Below, one piece after another: positions 1,134 to 32,846 of a stretch of DNA of 33,179 bases (position 1 is its first letter; every line of letters starts with the position of its first letter). The position numbers were made by a program, and so were the translations under genes. The notes beneath the pieces are model-generated. The model was not told where the DNA came from, made no database searches, and saw only the letters and a list, made by a program, of their open reading frames with translations. Source of the stretch: Verrucomicrobiales bacterium (lineage in GTDB: Bacteria; Verrucomicrobiota; Verrucomicrobiia; Methylacidiphilales; JAAUTS01); the NCBI GenBank assembly GCA_031265365.1, contig JAISCS010000067.1, positions 1 to 33,179 on the forward strand. Reading direction: 5' to 3'.

Positions 1134-1511
1134 TTTGAATGACTTTTGGCATCCTCAATTTATAACCGTTTATAACCGTTTTTCAAGCAATATCTACAAC
1201 ATCCCGCAACATCAACAACACAACCAAAAATTCAATTACTCTGCCAACACCTAGATAAATACAAGAGCCAACATCAAACCCCCAATAAAATCAGGGCAAA
1301 AAAATCCCCGCCTGTGCCGTTAGGGCGAGGTCTTTTACCCCAGTAAGACTAGGTGGGACGGCCAGCCTCCGGTCAGCCTTCCTTAAAAAAGGCGTGACAT
1401 CATGAAGACGGGTTAATGCCCCATGTTTTATAACATCGGTTAAAAGCATAACGCCCGATACTCGAACACCGCAGGGATTTTTTTCAAATCTCCGCTGACT
1501 TTGCCAAAGAA
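1134..1511. other. Gene-free stretch between integrase and pheT
   Basis: No convincing gene is seen. Apart from the tandem decamer near 1161-1180, the DNA is AT-rich next to the integrase and turns GC-rich past about 1300. The part at 1345-1400 looks like degraded intergenic repeat material. No tRNA-derived attachment site or clear terminator with a T-run is visible. Confidence 0.5.
1161..1180. repeat. Tandem 10-bp repeat upstream of the integrase
   Basis: TATAACCGTT occurs twice in direct succession (1161-1170 and 1171-1180), 28 bp upstream of the integrase ATG read on the minus strand. A short tandem repeat here could be a regulator- or recombinase-binding site. That role is inferred from position only. 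Confidence 0.4.
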
Positions 1512-3797: not shown

Positions 3798-3866
3798 AAG
3801 GGGATGAAACTAGCCGCTGACGGTGAAATTTCCAGCAGTCTTTTTGGCGCGCGCTGGCGCCGGGCG

Positions 3867-3940
3867 CGCACCCGTCAGGAGTCGAACCTGAAACCTTCTG
3901 ATCCGTAGTCAGATGCTCTATCCAATTGAGCTACGGGTGC
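3867..3940 (-). tRNA. tRNA-Arg (anticodon ACG)
   Basis: The minus strand folds as a full cloverleaf. The 7-bp acceptor stem is GCACCCG/CGGGTGC, the D-arm is GCTCAATTGGATAGAGC, and the anticodon stem-loop TCTGA-CTACGGA-TCAGA carries anticodon ACG. The T-arm is CAGGTTCGACTCCTG. CCA is not encoded; the base after the acceptor stem is G. It sits between ubiX and pheT on the same strand. ACG (A34 becoming inosine) reads CGU/CGC/CGA arginine codons. Confidence 0.97.
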
Positions 3941-5010: not shown

Positions 5011-6120
5011 ATGAATACCACCACCATCCCGTACTTCAGTCTGGCCGAGCAAAACCGCGCCTTGCGCGCCGAGCTGGCGACGGTCATCGGCAACGTCATG
5101 GACTGCGGCGCGTTTTGCCTGGGGCCGGAGGTGGAGGCGTTTGAGCAGGAATTCGCCGCGTGGAACGGCAGCCCGCACGTCGTCGCCGTCAACAGCGGCA
5201 CCTCGGCGCTGCACCTCGCCGCGCGGTTGCTCGACCTCGGCGCCGGCGATGAGGTCATCACCACCCCGTTCACTTTCGCGGCGACTAGTTGGGCGATTTC
5301 CTACGTCGGCGCGCGACCGGTGTATGTGGACGTGGACCCGGTCACGTGCAACCTCGACCCCGCGCGCCTCGCCGCCGCCATCACGCCGCGCACCAAGGCG
5401 ATTATCCCCGTGCATTTGTACGGGCATCCGTGCGCGGTCGAGGCCATCGCGCGCCTCGCCGCCGCGCGGTGCCTCGGCGTTATCGAGGACGCCGCGCAGG
5501 CGCACGGCGCGACGGTCGGCGGCCGGAAGACCGGCAATTTCGCGCCGCTGGCCGCGTTCAGTTTTTACCCGACCAAAAACCTCGGCGCGCTCGGCGAGGG
5601 CGGCGCGCTGGTCATCCGCAGCGCCGCGCTGGCCCGGCGCGCCCGCGCCCTGCGCAACCACGGTTGTCACGAGCGTTACCGTTACGACGAGGTCGGCTAC
5701 AACTATCGCATGGAGGGGATGCAGGGCGCGGTGTTGCGCGTCAAGCTGCGGCATTTGGATGAGTTTAACCGCCGGCGCCGCGCGCTGGCCGGGTGTTACA
5801 CGGAGCGTCTGCGCGGCCTGCCGCTGACGTTGCCGGTGGAGTTGCCGAACTGCCGTAGCGCGTGGCATCTCTACGTCATCCGCGCCGCCGAGCGGGATGC
5901 TTTGGCACGGCATCTCGCCATGTATGGCATCGGCAGCGCGATACATTATCCCATCCCGTTGCACCGGCAAAAGGCCTACGCCAGGCTGGGCTACCGGGCG
6001 GGTGATTTTCCCGTGGCCGAGCAAGCCGCGCGCGAGGTGTTGGCGCTGCCGTTTTATCCGGAAATGCCGTTGGAGCACGTGGACCGCGTCAGCGCCGCGA
6101 TTCGGGCGTTTTACGAGTAG
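5011..6120 (+). CDS. DegT/DnrJ/EryC1/StrS-family PLP aminotransferase
   Basis: A 369-residue fold-type I PLP enzyme of the nucleotide-sugar aminotransferase family, which adds an amino group to keto-sugars for polysaccharide or lipopolysaccharide building. Visible motifs are NSGTSALHLAARLL (phosphate binding), EVITTPFTFAATSWAI, the Asp-containing IEDAAQAHGA (contacts the PLP ring nitrogen), the internal-aldimine lysine in FSFYPTKNLGALGEGGAL, and the RYDEVGYNYRMEGMQGA block. The start is the ATG at 5011; the longer frame to 4960 runs into repeat DNA. The GT9 and GT-C-like genes follow on the same strand after a hairpin repeat, so a role in surface-glycan assembly is likely. The exact sugar substrate cannot be read from sequence. 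Confidence 0.93.
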   Translation: MNTTTIPYFSLAEQNRALRAELATVIGNVMDCGAFCLGPEVEAFEQEFAAWNGSPHVVAVNSGTSALHLAARLLDLGAGDEVITTPFTFAATSWAISYVGARPVYVDVDPVTCNLDPARLAAAITPRTKAIIPVHLYGHPCAVEAIARLAAARCLGVIEDAAQAHGATVGGRKTGNFAPLAAFSFYPTKNLGALGEGGALVIRSAALARRARALRNHGCHERYRYDEVGYNYRMEGMQGAVLRVKLRHLDEFNRRRRALAGCYTERLRGLPLTLPVELPNCRSAWHLYVIRAAERDALARHLAMYGIGSAIHYPIPLHRQKAYARLGYRAGDFPVAEQAAREVLALPFYPEMPLEHVDRVSAAIRAFYE

Positions 6121-6130
6121 GCAATAAAAG

Positions 6131-6243
6131 GATGTTCGCGCAGAGACGCGGAGTTTTTTTTGTTAAATATATTCTTGCGGCTTGGCGGCTTTGCGCGAGT
6201 TTCCCAATAAAAAAACTCCGCGTCTCTGCGGCTCTGCGCAAAC
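6131..6243. repeat. Hairpin repeat, GCAGAGACGCGGAG family
   Basis: GCGCAGAGACGCGGAGTTTTTTT near 6138 has an inverted counterpart before 6240, so the pair forms a long stem with A/T runs. Related arms appear at 16370-16452 and, as a half copy, near 24314. The T-run after the stem would allow terminator function downstream of the aminotransferase gene; that is inferred. Confidence 0.75.
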
Positions 6244-6301
6244 CTTTTAATAAAAAAACTTTCGCCATTGGCCAATATTCCGCTACAGTGTCCCACCACT
6301 C

Positions 6302-7540
6302 ATGAGTGCCCGGTTCAGCAATAACGCGCAAGTCTTGCAACGCATTGACGCTCTCGTCGTGCCGGTGTTGTGCGCGGCGGTCACGTTGTGGCGCAAGGTC
6401 ATGGACTGGCTGGGGGGCCGCGCCGGGGGCTGCGAGCCGCGCAGCATTTTGTTCCTCAAGCTCGCCGAGCAAGGCTCCACCGTCCTCGCCCACGCGGCCA
6501 TCAAGCGCGCCACGGAGCGGGTCGGCCGGGAGCAGGTCTATTTCTTGTTGTTCGAGGAGAACCGGTTCATCCTCGACACGCTCGACTTGGTGCCGCGGGA
6601 GAATGTGTTCACCATCCGCACCAAGTCGCCGTTGACGATGGTGGCCAGCACGCTGCGGCGGTTGTGGGAAATCCGGCGGCGCGGGATTGCGGCGGTGATT
6701 GACATGGAGTTTTTCGCGCGCTCGTCGGCGGTGTTGAGTTACTTGACCGGCGCGCGGGTGCGGGTGGGGTTTCACACGTATTTCGGCGAGGGGCCATATC
6801 GCGGGGATTTGTTCACGCATCGGGTGATGTATAACGCGCACTTGCACACGGCGCGGATGTTTGGGTGCCTGGTCGAGGCGTTGAATCATCCGGCGGGGCA
6901 ATTCCCGACTTTCGGTTATGTGCCGCCGCCGCCCGCGGAGTTGCCGCGCTTCGCGCCGACGGTGGCGGAGCGGGAGGAGGCGCGGCGCATTATCGACGAG
7001 GTGGTGGGCGCGGGGCCGCGGTTGATTTTGCTCAACGCCAATGCCAGTGATTTGCTGCCGTTGCGCCGCTGGGCGCCGGAGAATTACGTCGAGTTGACCA
7101 AACGGCTGCTGGAGCAATTTCCCGACGTGAGCGTGGCCTTCACCGGCTCGCGCGGGGAGGCGGCGCGGGTGGGCGAGCTGGTCGCGCGCATTGGCGGCAC
7201 GCGGGTGGCGTGCCTCGCGGGGCGGACGACGCTGCGGCAGTTGCTGGTTATCTACGGGCTGGCCGAGGTGTTGGTGACGAATGACAGCGGCCCGGCGCAT
7301 TTCGCGGCGTTGACGGCCATTGACACGGTGGTGTTATTCGGCCCGGAGACGCCGCTGCTGTTCGGCGCGCTGACGCCGCGCCATCACAACCTGTGGGCCC
7401 ACACCGCGTGCAGCCCGTGCGTCAACGCCTGGAACAACCGCCAGACCGCTTGCCGCGACAACGTGTGCATGCAACTGCTTTCCGTCAACCAAGTATTCGA
7501 AACCGTATGTCAAGTATATCAAAAACGCACCAACCCGTAA
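6302..7540 (+). CDS. GT9-family glycosyltransferase (ADP-heptose:LPS heptosyltransferase-like)
   Basis: The 412-residue product has the two-Rossmann GT-B layout of glycosyltransferase family 9, which uses ADP-heptose or similar donors to extend the LPS core. The N-terminal domain starts at SILFLKLAEQGSTVLAHAAI. The C-terminal donor domain shows LILLNANASDLLPLRRWAPENY and the diagnostic VTNDSGPAHFAAL near residue 340. An unusual cysteine-rich tail (ACSPCVNAWNNRQTACRDNVCM) follows. The ATG at 6302 lies just after a hairpin repeat. The 3' end overlaps the next gene by 34 bp, so the two are probably translated together. The acceptor and exact sugar are unknown. Confidence 0.88.
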   Translation: MSARFSNNAQVLQRIDALVVPVLCAAVTLWRKVMDWLGGRAGGCEPRSILFLKLAEQGSTVLAHAAIKRATERVGREQVYFLLFEENRFILDTLDLVPRENVFTIRTKSPLTMVASTLRRLWEIRRRGIAAVIDMEFFARSSAVLSYLTGARVRVGFHTYFGEGPYRGDLFTHRVMYNAHLHTARMFGCLVEALNHPAGQFPTFGYVPPPPAELPRFAPTVAEREEARRIIDEVVGAGPRLILLNANASDLLPLRRWAPENYVELTKRLLEQFPDVSVAFTGSRGEAARVGELVARIGGTRVACLAGRTTLRQLLVIYGLAEVLVTNDSGPAHFAALTAIDTVVLFGPETPLLFGALTPRHHNLWAHTACSPCVNAWNNRQTACRDNVCMQLLSVNQVFETVCQVYQKRTNP

Positions 7541-9324
7541 GCGCCGACGCTGACGCGCAACAGCACCTCGCCCTCGGCGTGGCCAAGGCGGAACGCCAGT
7601 GGCTGTACGCCGCGCTGGTCATCCTCGCCGGCCTCTTCGTCGCCGCGCCCGCCTTCCACGGCACCTGGCTGTGGGATGATGACCAGGAAATCACCGCCAA
7701 CGGCGCGCTGCGAACGTGGGCCGGGCTGTCCGCCATCTGGAGCGGCAACGCGGGCGCCGATTTCCTGCCGCTGAAGTCCACGATTTTGTGGATTGAATAT
7801 CATCTGTGGGAGCAGAACAACACGGGCTATCACCTCATCACGGTGTTGGCGCATATCATCAACGCGCTGCTGGTGTGGAAGCTGTTGCACAAGCTCGGCC
7901 TCCGCGCGGCGTGGCTCGGCGGGGTGTTGTTCGCGGTGCACCCGGTGCTGGTGGAATCGGTGGCATGGGTGTCGGAGCAAAAGAACACGCTCTCGCTCCT
8001 CCTGCTCATCCCGGCGATGCTGGCCTACATTAATTATGACGAGAAGTTGCACGCCAAAAACTTCACCCACGCGCTCGGCGCGTTCGGCTGGGCGCTGGGG
8101 TTGTTCCTCGCCTCGCTGTTGTGCAAGAGCAGCGGCATCATGATGCCGGTGGCCATCCTGCTGTTCGCGTGGTGGAAGCGCGGGCGGCTCGGTTGGAATG
8201 ATGTGTGGAGCAGCGTGCCCTTCTTCCTGGTGGCGCTCATCATCAGCATCGTGACCATCCATTTCCAATTCAGAAACGCCATCGGCAGCGAGTGGATACC
8301 CGTCGGCGGCTATATCTCGCGCACCGCTTGCGCCGGGCTGTTGATTTGGTTTTATTTGTACTGCACCATCTTCCCGTTCGACCTGTGCCCGATTTATCCG
8401 AAGTGGAACGTCGACCCGCCGGAGTGGTACCTGTTCCTGTGCTGGCCGGCGCTGCTGGCGCTGCTCTGGTGGCTGTGGACGCACCGCAAGACGTGGGGCC
8501 GGCACGTCCTGTTCGGCCTCGGTTTTTTCCTCATCTTCCTCGTGCCGGTGCTGGGGTTCGTCACCATGTCCTACATGCGTATCACCTGGGCGGCGGACCA
8601 CTTCCTGTACATCCCCGCCATCGGCCTCATCGGCCTGGCGGTGGCGACGATAAACCGGCTCTACACCGCCACGCCACTGGAGTATAAAAAATGGACCCTG
8701 ACCGGCTTCATCGCCCTGTTTTGCGTGCTGACCGGCTTCGCCCACTTTTACTCCGGCGTCTTCGCCAACGAGGCCACGATGTGGACCTACACTCTCTCGA
8801 AAAACGAAAACGCCTGGCAAGCGCACAGCCGCTACGGCAAAGTCCTGCTCGACTCCGGCAACATTGACGCCGCGTGGGTGCACATTTTCCACTCCAACCG
8901 TCTGCGCCCCGACCTCGCCGAGACGAACAACAACATGGGCGTGTTGTTGATGCAAAAGAACCGCCCGCAAGAAGCCATCCCCTTCATGCAACGCGCCGCC
9001 AACATCATGCCGGAGGCGGTCCCTTTCCGCCTGAACCTCGCCAACCTGCTGGCCAACACCGGCCACCCGCGCGAGTCGCTGGCACACTACGAATACGTCC
9101 TGCAACGCGACCCGCGCAACCCGATTTTCCACACCAATTTCGGCTTCGCGCTGTATCTTGACGGCCAGCGCGACCGCGCCATCGCCGAGTTCCGCACCGC
9201 GCTGCAAATCGACCCGAACTTCCAAAGCGCGCGGAAGAACCTGGAAATGGCCTTAAACAACGAAAAACCGCCCCTCCCCGGCGGCCCCCCGCCCACCCCG
9301 CCCGCCCCGGCCCCGAAGAACTAA
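7507..9324 (+). CDS. TMTC-like polytopic membrane protein with C-terminal TPRs (GT-C-like)
   Basis: A 605-residue membrane protein. After the first membrane segment (WLYAALVILAGLFVAAPAF, ~residues 32-50) comes WLWDDDQEI (D57-D59), the acidic loop typical of GT-C lipid-linked-sugar glycosyltransferases such as the TMTC/O-mannosyltransferase group. About ten hydrophobic helices follow to ~residue 415. Then come several tetratricopeptide repeats (NNNMGVLLMQKNRPQEAIPF, LANTGHPRESLAHYEYVLQ, LDGQRDRAIAEFRTALQIDP) and a proline-rich tail. The ATG at 7507 gives the family-like N-terminus and overlaps the upstream GT9 gene by 34 bp. Role inferred: transfer of a lipid-linked sugar to proteins or glycans at the cytoplasmic membrane. 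Confidence 0.8.
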   Translation: MSSISKTHQPVSADADAQQHLALGVAKAERQWLYAALVILAGLFVAAPAFHGTWLWDDDQEITANGALRTWAGLSAIWSGNAGADFLPLKSTILWIEYHLWEQNNTGYHLITVLAHIINALLVWKLLHKLGLRAAWLGGVLFAVHPVLVESVAWVSEQKNTLSLLLLIPAMLAYINYDEKLHAKNFTHALGAFGWALGLFLASLLCKSSGIMMPVAILLFAWWKRGRLGWNDVWSSVPFFLVALIISIVTIHFQFRNAIGSEWIPVGGYISRTACAGLLIWFYLYCTIFPFDLCPIYPKWNVDPPEWYLFLCWPALLALLWWLWTHRKTWGRHVLFGLGFFLIFLVPVLGFVTMSYMRITWAADHFLYIPAIGLIGLAVATINRLYTATPLEYKKWTLTGFIALFCVLTGFAHFYSGVFANEATMWTYTLSKNENAWQAHSRYGKVLLDSGNIDAAWVHIFHSNRLRPDLAETNNNMGVLLMQKNRPQEAIPFMQRAANIMPEAVPFRLNLANLLANTGHPRESLAHYEYVLQRDPRNPIFHTNFGFALYLDGQRDRAIAEFRTALQIDPNFQSARKNLEMALNNEKPPLPGGPPPTPPAPAPKN

Positions 9325-9344
9325 ACCTCCCCCGCAGCGCCCCC

Positions 9345-9567
9345 CAACGTAGCACAGGCAATCCTGCCTGTGTTTTGCTGGCCGGACACAGGCAAGATTG
9401 CCTATAGAATCTGCTAACGCTGAGACCAACCTCGCTGACCATGCCCCCTGCGCGAGCTAATTTCCCTCTCGAAGAGGGGTGGCCGCGCCAGCGGACGGGG
9501 TGTTTCAGCGTTTTGTGCTGGATTCCCCCGAACGCCGCGCGCGCTCCCTCACGGAAGGGGAATTAAA
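9345..9567. repeat. Two intergenic hairpin repeats
   Basis: At 9345-9411, CACAGGCAATCCTGCCTGTG and a nearby ACAGGCAAGATTGCCTAT form a stem. At about 9425-9567 lies a diverged copy of the large palindrome family in reverse orientation, with the tail-like CCATGCCCCCTGCGCGAGCT first and CCTCACGGAAGGGGAATT at the end. Its loop (TTTTGTGCTGGATTCCCC) differs from that of copies 1 and 2 but resembles the copy near 32605. The block separates the convergent GT-C-like gene and sensor kinase. Confidence 0.7.
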
Positions 9568-10966
9568 CCATTAGGGGCAGACGCAAGGTGAAGGTGGAAC
9601 CCACGCCCAGTTTGCTGGCGACGCTGATGGCACCGCCGTGGGCTTGGACGATGGCTTGCACGAGGCTCAGGCCCAGGCCCAACCCGCGCTGGTTGCGGCT
9701 GTGGTCGGCGCGGAACATGCGGTCCCAGATGCGCGGCAAATCCTGCTCGGCAATGCCTTGCCCGTGGTCGCTGACGGTGAGGAGGCCGCCGCCGGCGTCG
9801 CGGCTGACGGTCAGCGCGATGTCACTGTCGGCGGGGCTGTATTTGATGGCGTTGTCGAGCAGGTTGGCGATGACTTGGTTCAGGCGCACGGCGTCAGCGC
9901 GGACTTTGACGCCGGCCGGGCCGTTGACGGTGACGCGAATGTTTTTTTCCTCGGCGACGATTTCGTACAACTCGGCGGCGCGCGCGCAGATTTCCCGCAA
10001 ATCCACGGCGCTGATGGCCAGCCGCATGCTGCCGGTCCGCGCCTCGGCGACATCCATGGTGACCTCCAGCATCTTCAACACATACTCGGATTCCTCCAGG
10101 CAATCCGCCAGGCTCTCGCGCAATTCCGCCTCGGTTTTGCCGCCGCCGAGGGCGGACTCGGCGGCGTTGCGGAGGCGCGTCAGCGGCGTGCGGAGGTCGT
10201 GCGCGGCGTTGTCAATGGACTCGCGCATCAGTTGCATCAGGCGCGCGTTTTGTTCCAGCAGCCGGTTGAACAACGCGGACAATGAGCCGAGTTCGGGGTC
10301 GGACGGGCGCAGCGGCGCGCGGGCGTCGAGGTCGCCCTCTTGCAACAGTTTTTGCATCGTGGCGTTGAGGTCGCGCAACGGTCGCGTGGTGCGGTAGGTG
10401 ATGACCGCGCCGCCGATGAGCGTGATGACGGTCAGCGGCAGGACTATTTTCAAAAAAATGGATTTTAATTGTTTCAGGATGAGCGCCGCCTCGTTGGAGT
10501 TTTTGCCGGCTTGCAGGGTGAGTTGGTCGCTGATCCTGACGGTGAACAAGGTCCACAGGCTGTTGTTCGGGTCGGGGCGAATGGCGATGGTGTCCACGCC
10601 GGGCCGGGCGGGGATGGAGCGCAAGGTCGCCGGGGAAAGCATGGTGAAATTATGCGGCAGATTGCTGTACAAGATGCGCTGCTCCGCCGGCGTGATGAGG
10701 CGCAGGAAAAAACCGTCGCGCTCCCGGCTTTGCAAATCCTTGAACCGGTTTTCCAGCGCGGGCAGGCCGCCCTGCGCCAGCCAGTGCTGGTATTCGACGA
10801 GGCGGTTTTTCAAATAATCCACCTCGCGGTCGCGGGTGAACTTCGCCATCGCCAGATACGTCGCGCCGCTGACGATGAGCAGCATGGCGGCGATGAACAG
10901 GCCGTACCACAGCGACAGCCGCAAACTCAGGCCGAGGCCGAGTTTATTGTGCATCTTTGAGAACAT
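9563..10966 (-). CDS. Two-component sensor histidine kinase
   Basis: A 467-residue membrane kinase. It has a transmembrane helix at ~residues 18-42, a periplasmic sensor domain of ~125 residues, a second helix at ~170-190, then HAMP (TTRPLRDLNATMQKLLQ). HisKA follows with the phospho-accepting H256 in DNAAHDLRTPLTRLR. The HATPase_c domain shows N-box NLLDNAIKYS, G1 DHGQGI and G2 GLGLGLSLV. The layout resembles kinases paired with CusR/CopR-type regulators, but the signal cannot be told. Its start overlaps the 3' end of the regulator gene; ATGs at 10966 and 10954 are both possible, and the first gives a 23-bp overlap. Translation is probably coupled. Confidence 0.93.
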   Translation of the reverse strand: MFSKMHNKLGLGLSLRLSLWYGLFIAAMLLIVSGATYLAMAKFTRDREVDYLKNRLVEYQHWLAQGGLPALENRFKDLQSRERDGFFLRLITPAEQRILYSNLPHNFTMLSPATLRSIPARPGVDTIAIRPDPNNSLWTLFTVRISDQLTLQAGKNSNEAALILKQLKSIFLKIVLPLTVITLIGGAVITYRTTRPLRDLNATMQKLLQEGDLDARAPLRPSDPELGSLSALFNRLLEQNARLMQLMRESIDNAAHDLRTPLTRLRNAAESALGGGKTEAELRESLADCLEESEYVLKMLEVTMDVAEARTGSMRLAISAVDLREICARAAELYEIVAEEKNIRVTVNGPAGVKVRADAVRLNQVIANLLDNAIKYSPADSDIALTVSRDAGGGLLTVSDHGQGIAEQDLPRIWDRMFRADHSRNQRGLGLGLSLVQAIVQAHGGAISVASKLGVGSTFTLRLPLMV

Positions 10967-28484: not shown

Positions 28485-28543
28485 GCGAGGCCTAAACTAA
28501 CCAACCGCCTCGCCGACTGTCAAGTGTGTGCTTGATTGAATAT

Positions 28544-31096
28544 ATGAAAATTACCGCCGAGTTGTTCGCCGCCTTTTTGAAGTGTCCGGTCAAATGCTGG
28601 CTGCGCTTTCACGCCGGACAGGGGGAGGGGAATCCCTACGCCCAATGGTTCCGTGAGAAAATGAGCGTTTATCGCGCGGAAGGCGTCAAGCGGCTGGCGG
28701 CCAAGGCGGAGCGGGAGACGCCGGCCATGCCGGTCCGTTTTTACTTCCCTAACAAGTTGGACCGGGATGAAAGATTATTGCTGGGGTTTGACGCGCTGGC
28801 CGGCAAAGGCAAAATAGCGCGCGGTTGGCTGGTGCACGGCGACCATTACACGGTGAAAAAAATCAAAACCGCCGAATGGTCGCGCGCGGCGCGCCGGCGT
28901 GTCGAATCAATCACCGCCCTGCTGTCAGGCGCGGCGCCGCCCGAACTGGTCTTGAACCGCCACTGCGCGGAATGTGAGTTCCAGGGCCGCTGTCGTCAAC
29001 GCGCCGCCGAGGAGGACAACCTCAGTCTGCTGGCCGGCATGAGTGAGCGGGAGCGGCTGAGATTGCGTGCCAGGGGAATTTTCACCGTCACCCAGCTTTC
29101 CCACACCTTTCAACCGCGGCGCAAACCCAGATGGCTGCAAAACCGCGCGGAAAAATACCATCATGCGCTCAAGGCGCTGGCCATCCGCGAGCGGAAAATT
29201 CACTTGGTGGGCAGGCCGGCGCTGAAGATTGAGGGCACGCCGGTTTATTTGGATGTCGAGGGCGTGCCGGACCGCGACCGTTACTATCTCATCGGCTTGC
29301 GCGTCGGGGACGGAGCGGCGGCTGTGCAACACAGTTTGTGGGCTGACGATGACGGGGAGGAGGAAAGCATCTGGCGGCAGTTTCTGGATATGCTAAACAC
29401 GCTCAAGCAACCGGCGCTAATCCATTACGGCAGTTATGAAACCAGTTTCCTGAAACGGATGCGGGCGCGTTATGGTAGTCCGGCGGCGGATACGCCGGCG
29501 GCGGCGGCCATGCTGGCACCGCTGAACATGGTGTCGGTGATTTTTGCCAAAATTTATTTCCCGACCTGCTCGAACAGCCTGAAGGAAATCGCCCGCTACC
29601 TCGGCTTTGTCTGGTCGCAACCGGACGCCACGGGCGTGCAGACCGTGGTGTGGCGGGACACGTGGTCGCGCACCCGGGCCGGGGCCGAGAAGGCCAGGCT
29701 GATTGCGTACAATGCCGACGACTGCGCCGCGCTGGCGGTGATTACGCAAGCGATTCTGGAACTGTCGGCGTCAGCGAATCCCGGAGTGGTTGACGCCGCC
29801 AGCCTGAAACGGGAAAACCTCTACGGCTTCAAACGCAACCGTTTTTTCTTTCCCGAACTCGCGGCCATCAACCAAGCCGCGTACTGGGACTATCAGCGGG
29901 AGCGGGTCTATGTCAAATCCGACCGCCGCCTGAAGCGCGCCCTGCCGTCCGCCACCGGCATCATGAAAAACGTGCCGGCCAATCGCCGCGTCCAATGCCC
30001 GCCGCCGCGACAATGCCCAAGCTGCGGCTCTCCCGACTTGCGTAAATACGACCGCGCCGACCGGACAATTTACGATTTGAAGTTCACCCGCGGCGGCCTG
30101 CGTCGCTGGGTGGTACACTATCAATTTCACCGCTACGAGTGCCTGGCTTGCCGGCGGGTGTTTCGCCCGCCGCTGCCGGAACTGCCGGATGGCAAGTTCG
30201 GCGCGGGACTGGTGGCCTACGCGATTTACCAAAACATCGAACTGCGCTTGTCACAGGAAATCATTGACCGCACCCTCAACGAATTGTTCGGCTTGCAACT
30301 CCCGCGCGGCAGCGCGCGAGGTTTCAAAATCAAGGCCGCGCGGGATTACGCCGCCGCCTATGCCACGCTCCTGTCGCGTCTGCGCCAAGGCCGGCTGCTG
30401 CACGTGGATGAAACCAAGGTCAGTGTGGCCGGCTTCCAAGGCTGCGTCTGGGCCTTCGCCAGTCTGGACACCGTCGCCTACGTGTACACGCCCAACCGCG
30501 CGAGCGAGTGGCTGGGGGATTTTCTGAAGGATTTCAAGGGCGTGCTGGTGACGGATTTTTACGCCGGCTATGACGCGCTGACGTGTCCCAAGCAGCGTTG
30601 TCTCATCCATTTCCTGCGCGACTTGAACGACGATTTGTACAAACATCCCTACGACGGGGACATGCAAAACCTGGGGCGGGAATTTGCCGGTCTGGTCAAG
30701 CCGATGCTCGCCACCGCCGAATGTCGTGGCTTGAAAACCCACTTCCTGCGAAAACACCAAGTATCAGTTGACCGCTTTTACCGCCGGCTGGCGCGCATGA
30801 AAGTCAACTCCGCGATTTTCAAAAAATATCGGGAACGCTTCGCCAAGGAACGCGGGGAACTGTTCACCTTCCTGCATCACGACGGCGTGCCGTGGAACAA
30901 CAACAACGCGGAGCACGCCGTCAAAGCCTTCGCCCTGCTGCGCCAAGTGATTAACGGCGTGACCTCGGAAAAAGGCCTGCGTGAATATCTGGTCCTGCTC
31001 AGTCTGCGCGAAACCTGCAAAGGCCTTGGGGTGAAATTTCTGGACTTTCTCCGCTCCGGTGCGCGGGATGTCCATCATTTCGCCGGACATCGTTAG
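28544..31096 (+). CDS. Cas4/RecB-like (TM0106-type) + RNase H-like DEDD + IS66 DDE transposase fusion
   Basis: An 850-residue protein with three enzymatic modules. Residues 1-155 resemble the TM0106/Cas4-like RecB group, with cysteines C14/C18 (KCPVKC) and C141/C144/C150 (HCAECEFQGRC) set as in iron-sulfur Cas4 proteins; the PD-(D/E)xK residues are less clear (D83 is one candidate). A short helical hairpin-like segment follows (160-190). Residues ~230-400 are an RNase_H_2/YprB-like DEDD domain: D237/E239 in YLDVEGVPDRDRYYLIG, E299 in HYGSYET, D392/D393 in YNADDC. Residues 491-536 form a zinc ribbon (CPSC...CLAC), and ~610-840 an IS66 transposase with a complete D622-D671-E790 triad (HVDETKV, VTDFYAGYD, NNNNAEHAVK). 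No tnpA/tnpB partners or clear terminal repeats are present. The ATG at 28544 is preferred to an upstream GTG at 28526. Confidence 0.88.
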   Translation: MKITAELFAAFLKCPVKCWLRFHAGQGEGNPYAQWFREKMSVYRAEGVKRLAAKAERETPAMPVRFYFPNKLDRDERLLLGFDALAGKGKIARGWLVHGDHYTVKKIKTAEWSRAARRRVESITALLSGAAPPELVLNRHCAECEFQGRCRQRAAEEDNLSLLAGMSERERLRLRARGIFTVTQLSHTFQPRRKPRWLQNRAEKYHHALKALAIRERKIHLVGRPALKIEGTPVYLDVEGVPDRDRYYLIGLRVGDGAAAVQHSLWADDDGEEESIWRQFLDMLNTLKQPALIHYGSYETSFLKRMRARYGSPAADTPAAAAMLAPLNMVSVIFAKIYFPTCSNSLKEIARYLGFVWSQPDATGVQTVVWRDTWSRTRAGAEKARLIAYNADDCAALAVITQAILELSASANPGVVDAASLKRENLYGFKRNRFFFPELAAINQAAYWDYQRERVYVKSDRRLKRALPSATGIMKNVPANRRVQCPPPRQCPSCGSPDLRKYDRADRTIYDLKFTRGGLRRWVVHYQFHRYECLACRRVFRPPLPELPDGKFGAGLVAYAIYQNIELRLSQEIIDRTLNELFGLQLPRGSARGFKIKAARDYAAAYATLLSRLRQGRLLHVDETKVSVAGFQGCVWAFASLDTVAYVYTPNRASEWLGDFLKDFKGVLVTDFYAGYDALTCPKQRCLIHFLRDLNDDLYKHPYDGDMQNLGREFAGLVKPMLATAECRGLKTHFLRKHQVSVDRFYRRLARMKVNSAIFKKYRERFAKERGELFTFLHHDGVPWNNNNAEHAVKAFALLRQVINGVTSEKGLREYLVLLSLRETCKGLGVKFLDFLRSGARDVHHFAGHR

Positions 31097-31197
31097 CGCC
31101 AATTAATATCCTCCATGAACTCCCAACAAAAAATCCTTCGCGCCCTGGCGTCTTTTTGGTTAGCGTAAATTCGCGTGATTAGCGCGGCCAAAAGACC

Positions 31198-31973: not shown

Positions 31974-32519
31974 TTATTTTTTGCCTATAAACTTGATGGT
32001 GAGTCCGTGACAAATGCCAATCCAGAATCCGCAAAACACATACAGTGGTGATACGTAAAGCAAGTTTTCTCCCAAACGAATAAGAGCATACCAAATTGAA
32101 TTTCGATAAATCTGTAAATAAATTCTAGCGAAGATATTCAATTCAGCAAAGTCATAGGTAATTACAATTACCAACCAGTATATCAATACAATCCATACAC
32201 ATTTCCAACTGGAGGGATTCAACCCTCGACGAAATCGATACAACAAACAGACATTGATGACGAGGCTAGGAATGAGTGTGATTAACCCGAGCAAAAACAA
32301 ACCACCACGAAGCTCCCGAAGCTCTTTTATGAACGTGTTTGATGGCGAGGATGAGTATAATAATGACCATGTTAGCATGAAACCAATAAGACCAAGCATG
32401 GCGATTGGACATGGCGAAAGAATAGTAACCAACGCGCGGACATTGTATTTCATGGGAGAATTAAACAACAAATAATTGAATACGCCATAAAAAACCATTG
32501 ACGATGAGATGTGTGCCAT
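31974..32519 (-). CDS. Small AT-rich membrane protein of unknown function
   Basis: The frame encodes up to 181 residues with about four hydrophobic helices ([74 protein letters not shown]). Start sites at 32519, 32498 or 32453 are possible; the last (MKYNVRALV) is also attractive. The DNA is visibly near 40% GC in a ~60% GC window and lacks the iterated heptamer, so it is probably acquired. No family is recognised. It lies convergent to mqnA, and its start abuts a fragment of a second mqnA. Confidence 0.65.
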
Positions 32520-32602
32520 CAGCGGACGACCTAGCCGCGTTCCGCGCCGCGACGTTGTCCGGCCTCGCGCGCCGTCAGCGCATCGCCGAAAACGATTTAG
32601 CA
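32519..32602 (+). pseudogene. Fragment of a second mqnA (C-terminal part)
   Basis: Plus-strand DNA reads [20 protein letters not shown] and on to RIAEND, almost identical to residues near the MqnA C-terminus ([26 protein letters not shown]). Over about 81 bp I count 13 differences from 31726-31806, many at silent positions, for example different codons for the same Leu and Ser. This suggests a copy that diverged while functional. It starts sharply at the end of the AT-rich segment and stops near the repeat at 32605. Confidence 0.75.
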
Positions 32603-32604
32603 TT

Positions 32605-32728
32605 TGTGCTGTATTCCCGATGAACGCTGAAACACCCCGTCGGCTCCGCCGCCACCCCTCTTCGAGAGGGGAATTCTGCGAGAGGGAAATTAGTGTTCTA
32701 GCGTTAGCGATTCCATTGCTAACAGCGA
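32605..32728. repeat. Half copy of the large palindrome family
   Basis: A loop-like TTTGTGCTGTATTCCC (as near 9511) leads into an arm with CTGAAACACCCCGTCGGCTC and CACCCCTCTTCGAGAGGGGA, then a tail with GCTAACAGCGAGAACC. The matching left arm is missing; the mqnA fragment lies there instead. Confidence 0.65.
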
Positions 32729-32732
32729 GAAC

Positions 32733-32846
32733 CTTTTTAACGCAGAGAGGCAAAGAGCGCGAAGAATTTTTGAAGCATGTTAGTCATGAATTATTGAAAA
32801 AATATTTGCGCTCTTTGTCCCTTTGCGCCTTTGCGTTAAAAATATT
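32733..32846. repeat. Hairpin repeat, CGCAAAG family
   Basis: TTTTTAACGCAGAGAGGCAA pairs with TTTGCGCCTTTGCGTTAAAA, with further GAGCGCGAAGA/TTGCGCTCTTTG pairing inside. It is the same family as 4614-4709 and lies upstream of the Nramp gene. Confidence 0.75.

Follow-up and report, generated by a model that had tools for sequence, protein, structure and literature searches.

What is a gene whose product joins a Cas4-like fold, an exonuclease domain and an IS66-type transposase core: the sole gene of a mobile element, a host gene or something else? Such a gene lies in the window (the whole stretch of 33,179 nucleotides analysed here), where a first-pass annotation, made from the sequence alone, had described it as encoding a single protein that might process, trim and integrate DNA ends.

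The fusion gene and its product

The gene runs from an ATG at 28544 to a stop codon at 31096 as a single uninterrupted frame of 850 codons, with an alternative GTG start possible at 28526. In Pfam/NCBIfam profile searches its product matched RNase_H_2 (residues 234-403, E 5.5e-21), DDE_Tnp_IS66 (residues 551-812, E 2.6e-29), TIGR03491 (TM0106 RecB-like; residues 90-400, 177.6 bits against a curated cut-off of 97.45) and NF033517 (IS66 transposase equivalog; residues 476-838, 201 bits against 180), in each case above the curated cut-off. Both the intact 850-residue frame and the union of Cas4/RecB-like, DEDD and IS66 parts in one polypeptide, as first described, are therefore confirmed. The domains have no well-defined arrangement in the full-length model (mean pLDDT 84.9, pTM 0.51), and an Rfam search of the fusion gene gave no RNA match at the gathering score. 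The features discussed below are as follows.

28544-31096, plus strand: fusion coding sequence, 850 aa, consisting of a dead Cas4/RecB-like module, a DEDDy exonuclease, a zinc ribbon and an IS66-type DDE domain (reading frame and profile searches)
28544-29008, plus strand: Cas4/RecB-like module, residues 1-155, with predicted Fe-S cysteines C14, C141, C144 and C150 (alignment, profile and fold)
28736-28744, plus strand: place of the lost PD-(D/E)xK motif, residues 65-67, here R-F-Y where canonical TM0106/Cas4 has (D/E)xK (alignment with canonical relatives)
29243-29752, plus strand: DEDDy 3'-5' exonuclease-like domain (RNase_H_2), residues 234-403, with D237, E239, E299, Y389 and D393 (profile and alignment)
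29741-30763, plus strand: place of the segment, approximately residues 400-740 from the zinc ribbon to the DDE core, that is exchanged between family members, as seen in relatives of the window copy (pairwise comparison)
30014-30151, plus strand: four-Cys zinc ribbon, C491, C494, C533 and C536, 100% conserved (alignment)
30194-30979, plus strand: IS66-type DDE domain, triad D622, D671 and E790 (profile, alignment and structure match)
31097-31110, no strand: right-hand synteny break, at most about 14 bases past the stop codon, where same-genus homology upstream of mqnA begins (closest same-genus genomes)
1301-1480, minus strand: 6S RNA gene (Rfam, 62 bits)
3866-3940: tRNA-Arg

Elsewhere in the window, a fragment at 32501-32614, some 560 bases beyond mqnA, matches MqnA residues 171-208 (63% identical). 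It represents a partial duplication, which does not extend across the fusion gene. A long inverted repeat at 32735-32841, of the type TTTTAACGCAGAGAGGCAAAGAGCG ... CTTTGCGTTAAAA, is possibly a dispersed repeat.

A widespread family

A scan of GTDB genomes revealed 153 stretches that encode relatives of the fusion protein. Of these, 80 loci, many of them in metagenome bins, were kept. The alignment comprised 72 essentially full-length proteins, which represent at least 11 phyla and include some from isolates. Given these numbers, an assembly join, which the first-pass annotation would have suspected had the homologues always been split into separate genes, is ruled out: the fusion gene belongs to a family. 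The same architecture occurs in isolates (Pedobacter glucosidilyticus and Polaromonas among them), on plasmids and in another genome of the same genus, whose full-length copy (74% identical in protein) lies at a different locus with a different neighbourhood. Among 60 genomes searched, three had a match, namely the gene's own genome (2.76 Mb, ~78% complete), one other genome of the genus (1/4) and a third with a weak, partial match (28% identical).

The pairing of domains already sits in the databases, as had been anticipated, where records label the same protein either as a TM0106 nuclease or as an IS66 transposase. A search of the open-access literature found no functional description of the fusion, in agreement with the earlier reading, and a paper on Cas4 phylogenomics makes no mention of it. 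No relative was found by tblastn against IMG/VR, and phage sequences gave only weak IS66 matches. The fusion is a widespread, unstudied family, carried between phyla as cargo.

Conservation of the catalytic modules

The Cas4/RecB-like module of the window copy is ~50 residues shorter than in most relatives. Its predicted fold (mean pLDDT 86.6, pTM 0.80) had as its best Foldseek match the Cas4 of a Cas4-Cas1-Cas2 complex (E 6e-10), followed by Cas4-Cas1, Dna2 and RecE, and the family profile matched Cas4 8d3l (E 6.4e-6). These matches bear out the description of the N-terminus as Cas4-like. In the alignment, C141, C144 and C150 are conserved in 100% of the sequences and C14 in 68 of the 72, the remaining four rows being gapped there; the proposed cysteine set stands for these four residues and falls for C18, which is present in 33/72. 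Canonical TM0106 proteins carry AGYADF and then a DTKL motif, whereas the fusion family mostly has P(I/V)RF at the second place: only one of the 72 fusion proteins retains [DE]xK at this site, which the canonical relatives L141, L142 and L144 all keep. With the catalytic (D/E)xK missing throughout the family, the Cas4-type end-processing activity proposed earlier is not supported. The N-terminal module has a Cas4/RecB fold, has kept its predicted Fe-S cysteines and has lost its nuclease residues (hence 'dead'). The neighbour families that recur at the fusion loci include no cas genes.

The other two sites are intact. D237, E239, Y389 and D393, together with E or D at position 299, are conserved in 100% of the 72 sequences, all of which carry the DEDDy signature (D-x-E, D/E, Y-x3-D). 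The first assignment of this site had D237, E239 and D393 right, had also listed D392 (the last Asp is D393) and had missed E/D299. D622, D671 and E790 are likewise invariant in all 72 sequences, as are the four cysteines of the zinc ribbon, and among solved structures the C-terminal half is best matched by the ISCth4 transposase (6xgx; E 1.8e-7). The full IS66 triad and the zinc ribbon were hence correctly recognized, and the catalytic residues do align. As judged from this conservation, the exonuclease (DEDDy) and strand-transfer (DDE) sites are intact, so that the chemistry first suggested is half right: the exonuclease and transposase sites remain and the Cas4 site is lost.

Exchange of a putative recognition segment

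In many pairs of relatives, residues 130-360 are 75-87% identical, with four-fold-site identity of up to 89%, whereas residues 400-600 of the same pairs are only 24-44% identical, with near-random four-fold sites. The reverse pattern, a similar C-terminal segment with a divergent N-terminal part, was not seen among the pairs. In L053 and L055, both of which lie beside comM, the DNA of the N-terminal halves is 89.5% identical (comM, 74%) and much of the C-terminal halves cannot be aligned. The zinc ribbon and much of the DDE core fall within the exchanged segment, as does a helical region. These comparisons indicate that a putative DNA-recognition and DDE segment has been swapped between family members by recombination, as would be expected for an enzyme with a changing DNA target.

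Absence of insertion-sequence features

No TnpA/TnpB partner ORF adjoins the fusion gene, TnpB_IS66 was not found in its own genome (~78% complete), and a search for terminal inverted repeats around the ORF found none above chance, in line with what had been noted from the sequence. A scan of all loci for 14-bp terminal inverted repeats plus a target duplication gave 12 weak matches, none of them IS66-like, against four in the one shuffled control, which scored equally high. The window gene and its relatives in L005 and L051 have no recognizable sequence in common outside the coding region, and repeats taken from the window gene's own flanks gave only weak partial matches within its genome. 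That genome has a single IS66 DDE match, i.e. one copy; the usual number is one to three. Where a genome has several copies, these are 35-71% identical to each other, and near-identical copies were found in none of the 16 genomes. Phyla are intermingled on the tree, with 34 label changes (the least possible being 10), a count to be read with the caveat that bins may hold stray contigs.

The fusion gene therefore moves horizontally, but unlike an insertion sequence. Neither of the two identities first offered for it is borne out. An unusual one-gene element is unsupported because terminal repeats and target duplications are missing, the copies are divergent and several loci are bounded by other mobility systems; a host-owned enzyme, in the plain sense, is not right either, given an accessory gene whose tree does not follow phyla.

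Carriers of the fusion gene

The fusion gene is found as cargo of other systems: an integron array, att-bounded islands, plasmids and a block between nuo genes. In L072 it lies within an integron array, with a perfect attC just downstream; a strict attC scan of the other loci gave nothing certain. Direct repeats flank it in five loci, formed by the 3' end of tRNA-Gly (L016 and L043), tRNA-Asn (L008), tRNA-Glu with a terminator (L030) or comM (L053), and the islands of L016 and L053 consist only of the fusion gene and a toxin-antitoxin (TA) pair (AbiE or HigBA). L016 and L043 have in common a 12-mer, AAAGCACTTACG, just inside the att copy, and a phage-integrase gene adjoins the L043 island. A tyrosine integrase is accordingly the likelier mover of these islands, which weakens the case for the fusion protein itself as the tRNA-island integrase. 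Three plasmid records match the fusion, one of them covering only 30% of the query. In L064, nuoA and nuoB are split by a 3763-bp block (5840-9602) that contains the fusion gene together with a RAYT gene and REP palindromes; in eleven related genomes the two nuo genes overlap or have no more than ~130 bases between them. A fusion plus AbiE unit, 95% identical, occurs in two different Bacteroidota contexts.

Several further observations concern these loci. REP palindromes were considered as the fusion gene's own ends and rejected, since the adjoining RAYT gene explains them (L025 and L064); in L025 they also occur inside the fusion reading frame (6194-6388), which is still open. In two Nitrospirota bins (L053, 2100-5730, and L055) the comM 3' end is the insertion site of the fusion gene together with HigBA, and a 143-base copy of the comM end (82% identical) lies beyond the L053 island. 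Besides the fusion gene, the tRNA-Asn island (L008, 3795-9297) encodes an HTH protein that looks, by eye, similar to ParB-like regulators; it also has a long reverse frame that, again by eye, resembles an AlbA_2 domain protein. The fusion plus AbiE unit is found in L078 (244-4725), L079 and L082; in L078 its boundaries are GTTACCTGC inverted repeats, and an attC-like stem lies alongside; the exact 9-mer is absent from the other loci. The attC-like arms (GTTACCTGC) of the Bacteroidota units do not fit GTTRRRY, so we offer them as attC sites only as a suggestion.

Toxin-antitoxin and other neighbours

Of 66 loci, 17 have TA genes within 1.5 kb downstream of the fusion gene; on the upstream side the figure is 4 of 56 (Fisher p 0.008). 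These counts come from assignments made by hand after the data had been seen and include some weak PIN/ParE calls. No TA family recurred (two or more members) among genes further from the fusion. L070 and L073 have in common a 6-kb unit (93% identical) containing a DNA methyltransferase gene and the fusion gene.

Possible functions

Our preferred reading, held tentatively, is that the gene is an accessory one that moves horizontally and encodes a transposase-derived DNA-processing enzyme, and that it does not represent an insertion sequence. In such an enzyme, the dead Cas4-like module would bind or position DNA ends, the DEDDy exonuclease would trim the 3' end, and the zinc ribbon with the DDE core would recognize a DNA sequence and nick or join it. 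Judging from the neighbours, its most likely role is that of an accessory weapon or a defence enzyme against incoming DNA. This is tempered by the fact that the neighbours are for the most part TA modules, which are typical cargo of integrons and islands in general, and that an invariant DDE triad is also expected of an active transposase.

The main rival is self-mobility, in which the fusion protein would act as transposase or integrase for a small element of its own, mobilizing itself and adjoining TA genes, with ends that would be short, subterminal or not inverted and that are possibly aimed at the 3' ends of tRNA or other genes. We consider this rather unlikely. The invariant triad would suit such an element, as would the 95%-identical AbiE unit in its two contexts and the islands of fusion and TA genes with direct repeats (L016, L043, L008, L030 and L053), between which no recombinase gene was recognized. 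However, the scans for terminal repeats with target duplication did not exceed chance, near-identical copies are lacking in all 16 genomes, the window gene has nothing outside the coding sequence in common with L005 and L051, L072 is bounded by attC, and both AAAGCACTTACG in L016 and L043 and the L043 phage-integrase gene point to a tyrosine integrase.

The three activities first named recall CRISPR spacer acquisition, a parallel that we treat as a resemblance. There is a small chance that the family is a one-chain, Cas1-free counterpart of CRISPR adaptation, with exchangeable target recognition and spread as integron or island cargo. Slightly more doubtful still is a one-polypeptide capture machine that would bind free ends (dead Cas4), trim them (DEDDy) and integrate them at a preferred site (DDE), much as Cas4, DnaQ and Cas1 do. 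The closest fold match of the N-terminus, Cas4 inside a prespacer complex with Cas1 and Cas2, and the co-occurrence of DEDDy and DDE sites in 72/72 members are consistent with this, but the Cas4 end-cutting residues are gone, and inspection of the sequence beside the window gene showed neither an array nor a repeat nor any acquired fragment. Least probable of all is a domesticated transposase kept as a low-copy housekeeping gene for host DNA repair, which would account for the one to three copies and missing terminal repeats but not for the patchy distribution (3/60 genomes matching, its own included, with most close relatives lacking the gene), the mixing of phyla on the tree, the plasmid copies or the different loci within one genus.

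The family as a whole combines a transposase core that is catalytically intact in sequence with a lack of the usual insertion-sequence signs, and in it a Cas4-like module persists in a role other than cutting. If the proposed mechanism is correct, this would be a compact enzyme for binding, trimming and joining ends, and another way, alongside Cas4-Cas1, of combining these steps; were it a defence or addiction gene, it would still represent an undescribed enzyme class in at least 11 phyla.

Comparison with known systems

Cas4 of the Cas4-Cas1-Cas2 complexes (8d3l, 7mi4) resembles the N-terminal module in fold and cysteine set, whereas the fusion protein lacks the catalytic (D/E)xK and is joined to a DDE enzyme rather than to Cas1. 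The ISCth4 transposase, the best solved structure for the C-terminal half, belongs to a different IS family (IS256) and is only 12-14% identical to the fusion. TM0106 proteins (TIGR03491) likewise begin with a Cas4/RecB-like part that carries Fe-S cysteines and continue with an RNase_H_2 DEDDy domain, and the fusion scores above their curated cut-off; unlike them, it has lost the nuclease (D/E)xK and ends in an IS66 transposase, the canonical relatives found having frames of ~500 aa or ~1140 aa. The C-terminal half resembles the single-ORF ISBst12 group of the IS66 family, which is likewise without TnpA/TnpB partners (PMC12898284), and the DDE core of the fusion exceeds the IS66 equivalog cut-off. 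In contrast to ISDge4, which has terminal inverted repeats with an 8-bp target duplication (PMC12898284), the fusion loci showed neither in the scan of all loci. Among stand-alone IS66 proteins on plasmids, even the nearest reach only ~25-29% identity to the fusion, which differs from the ISBst12 group also in its N-terminal extension of more than 400 residues.
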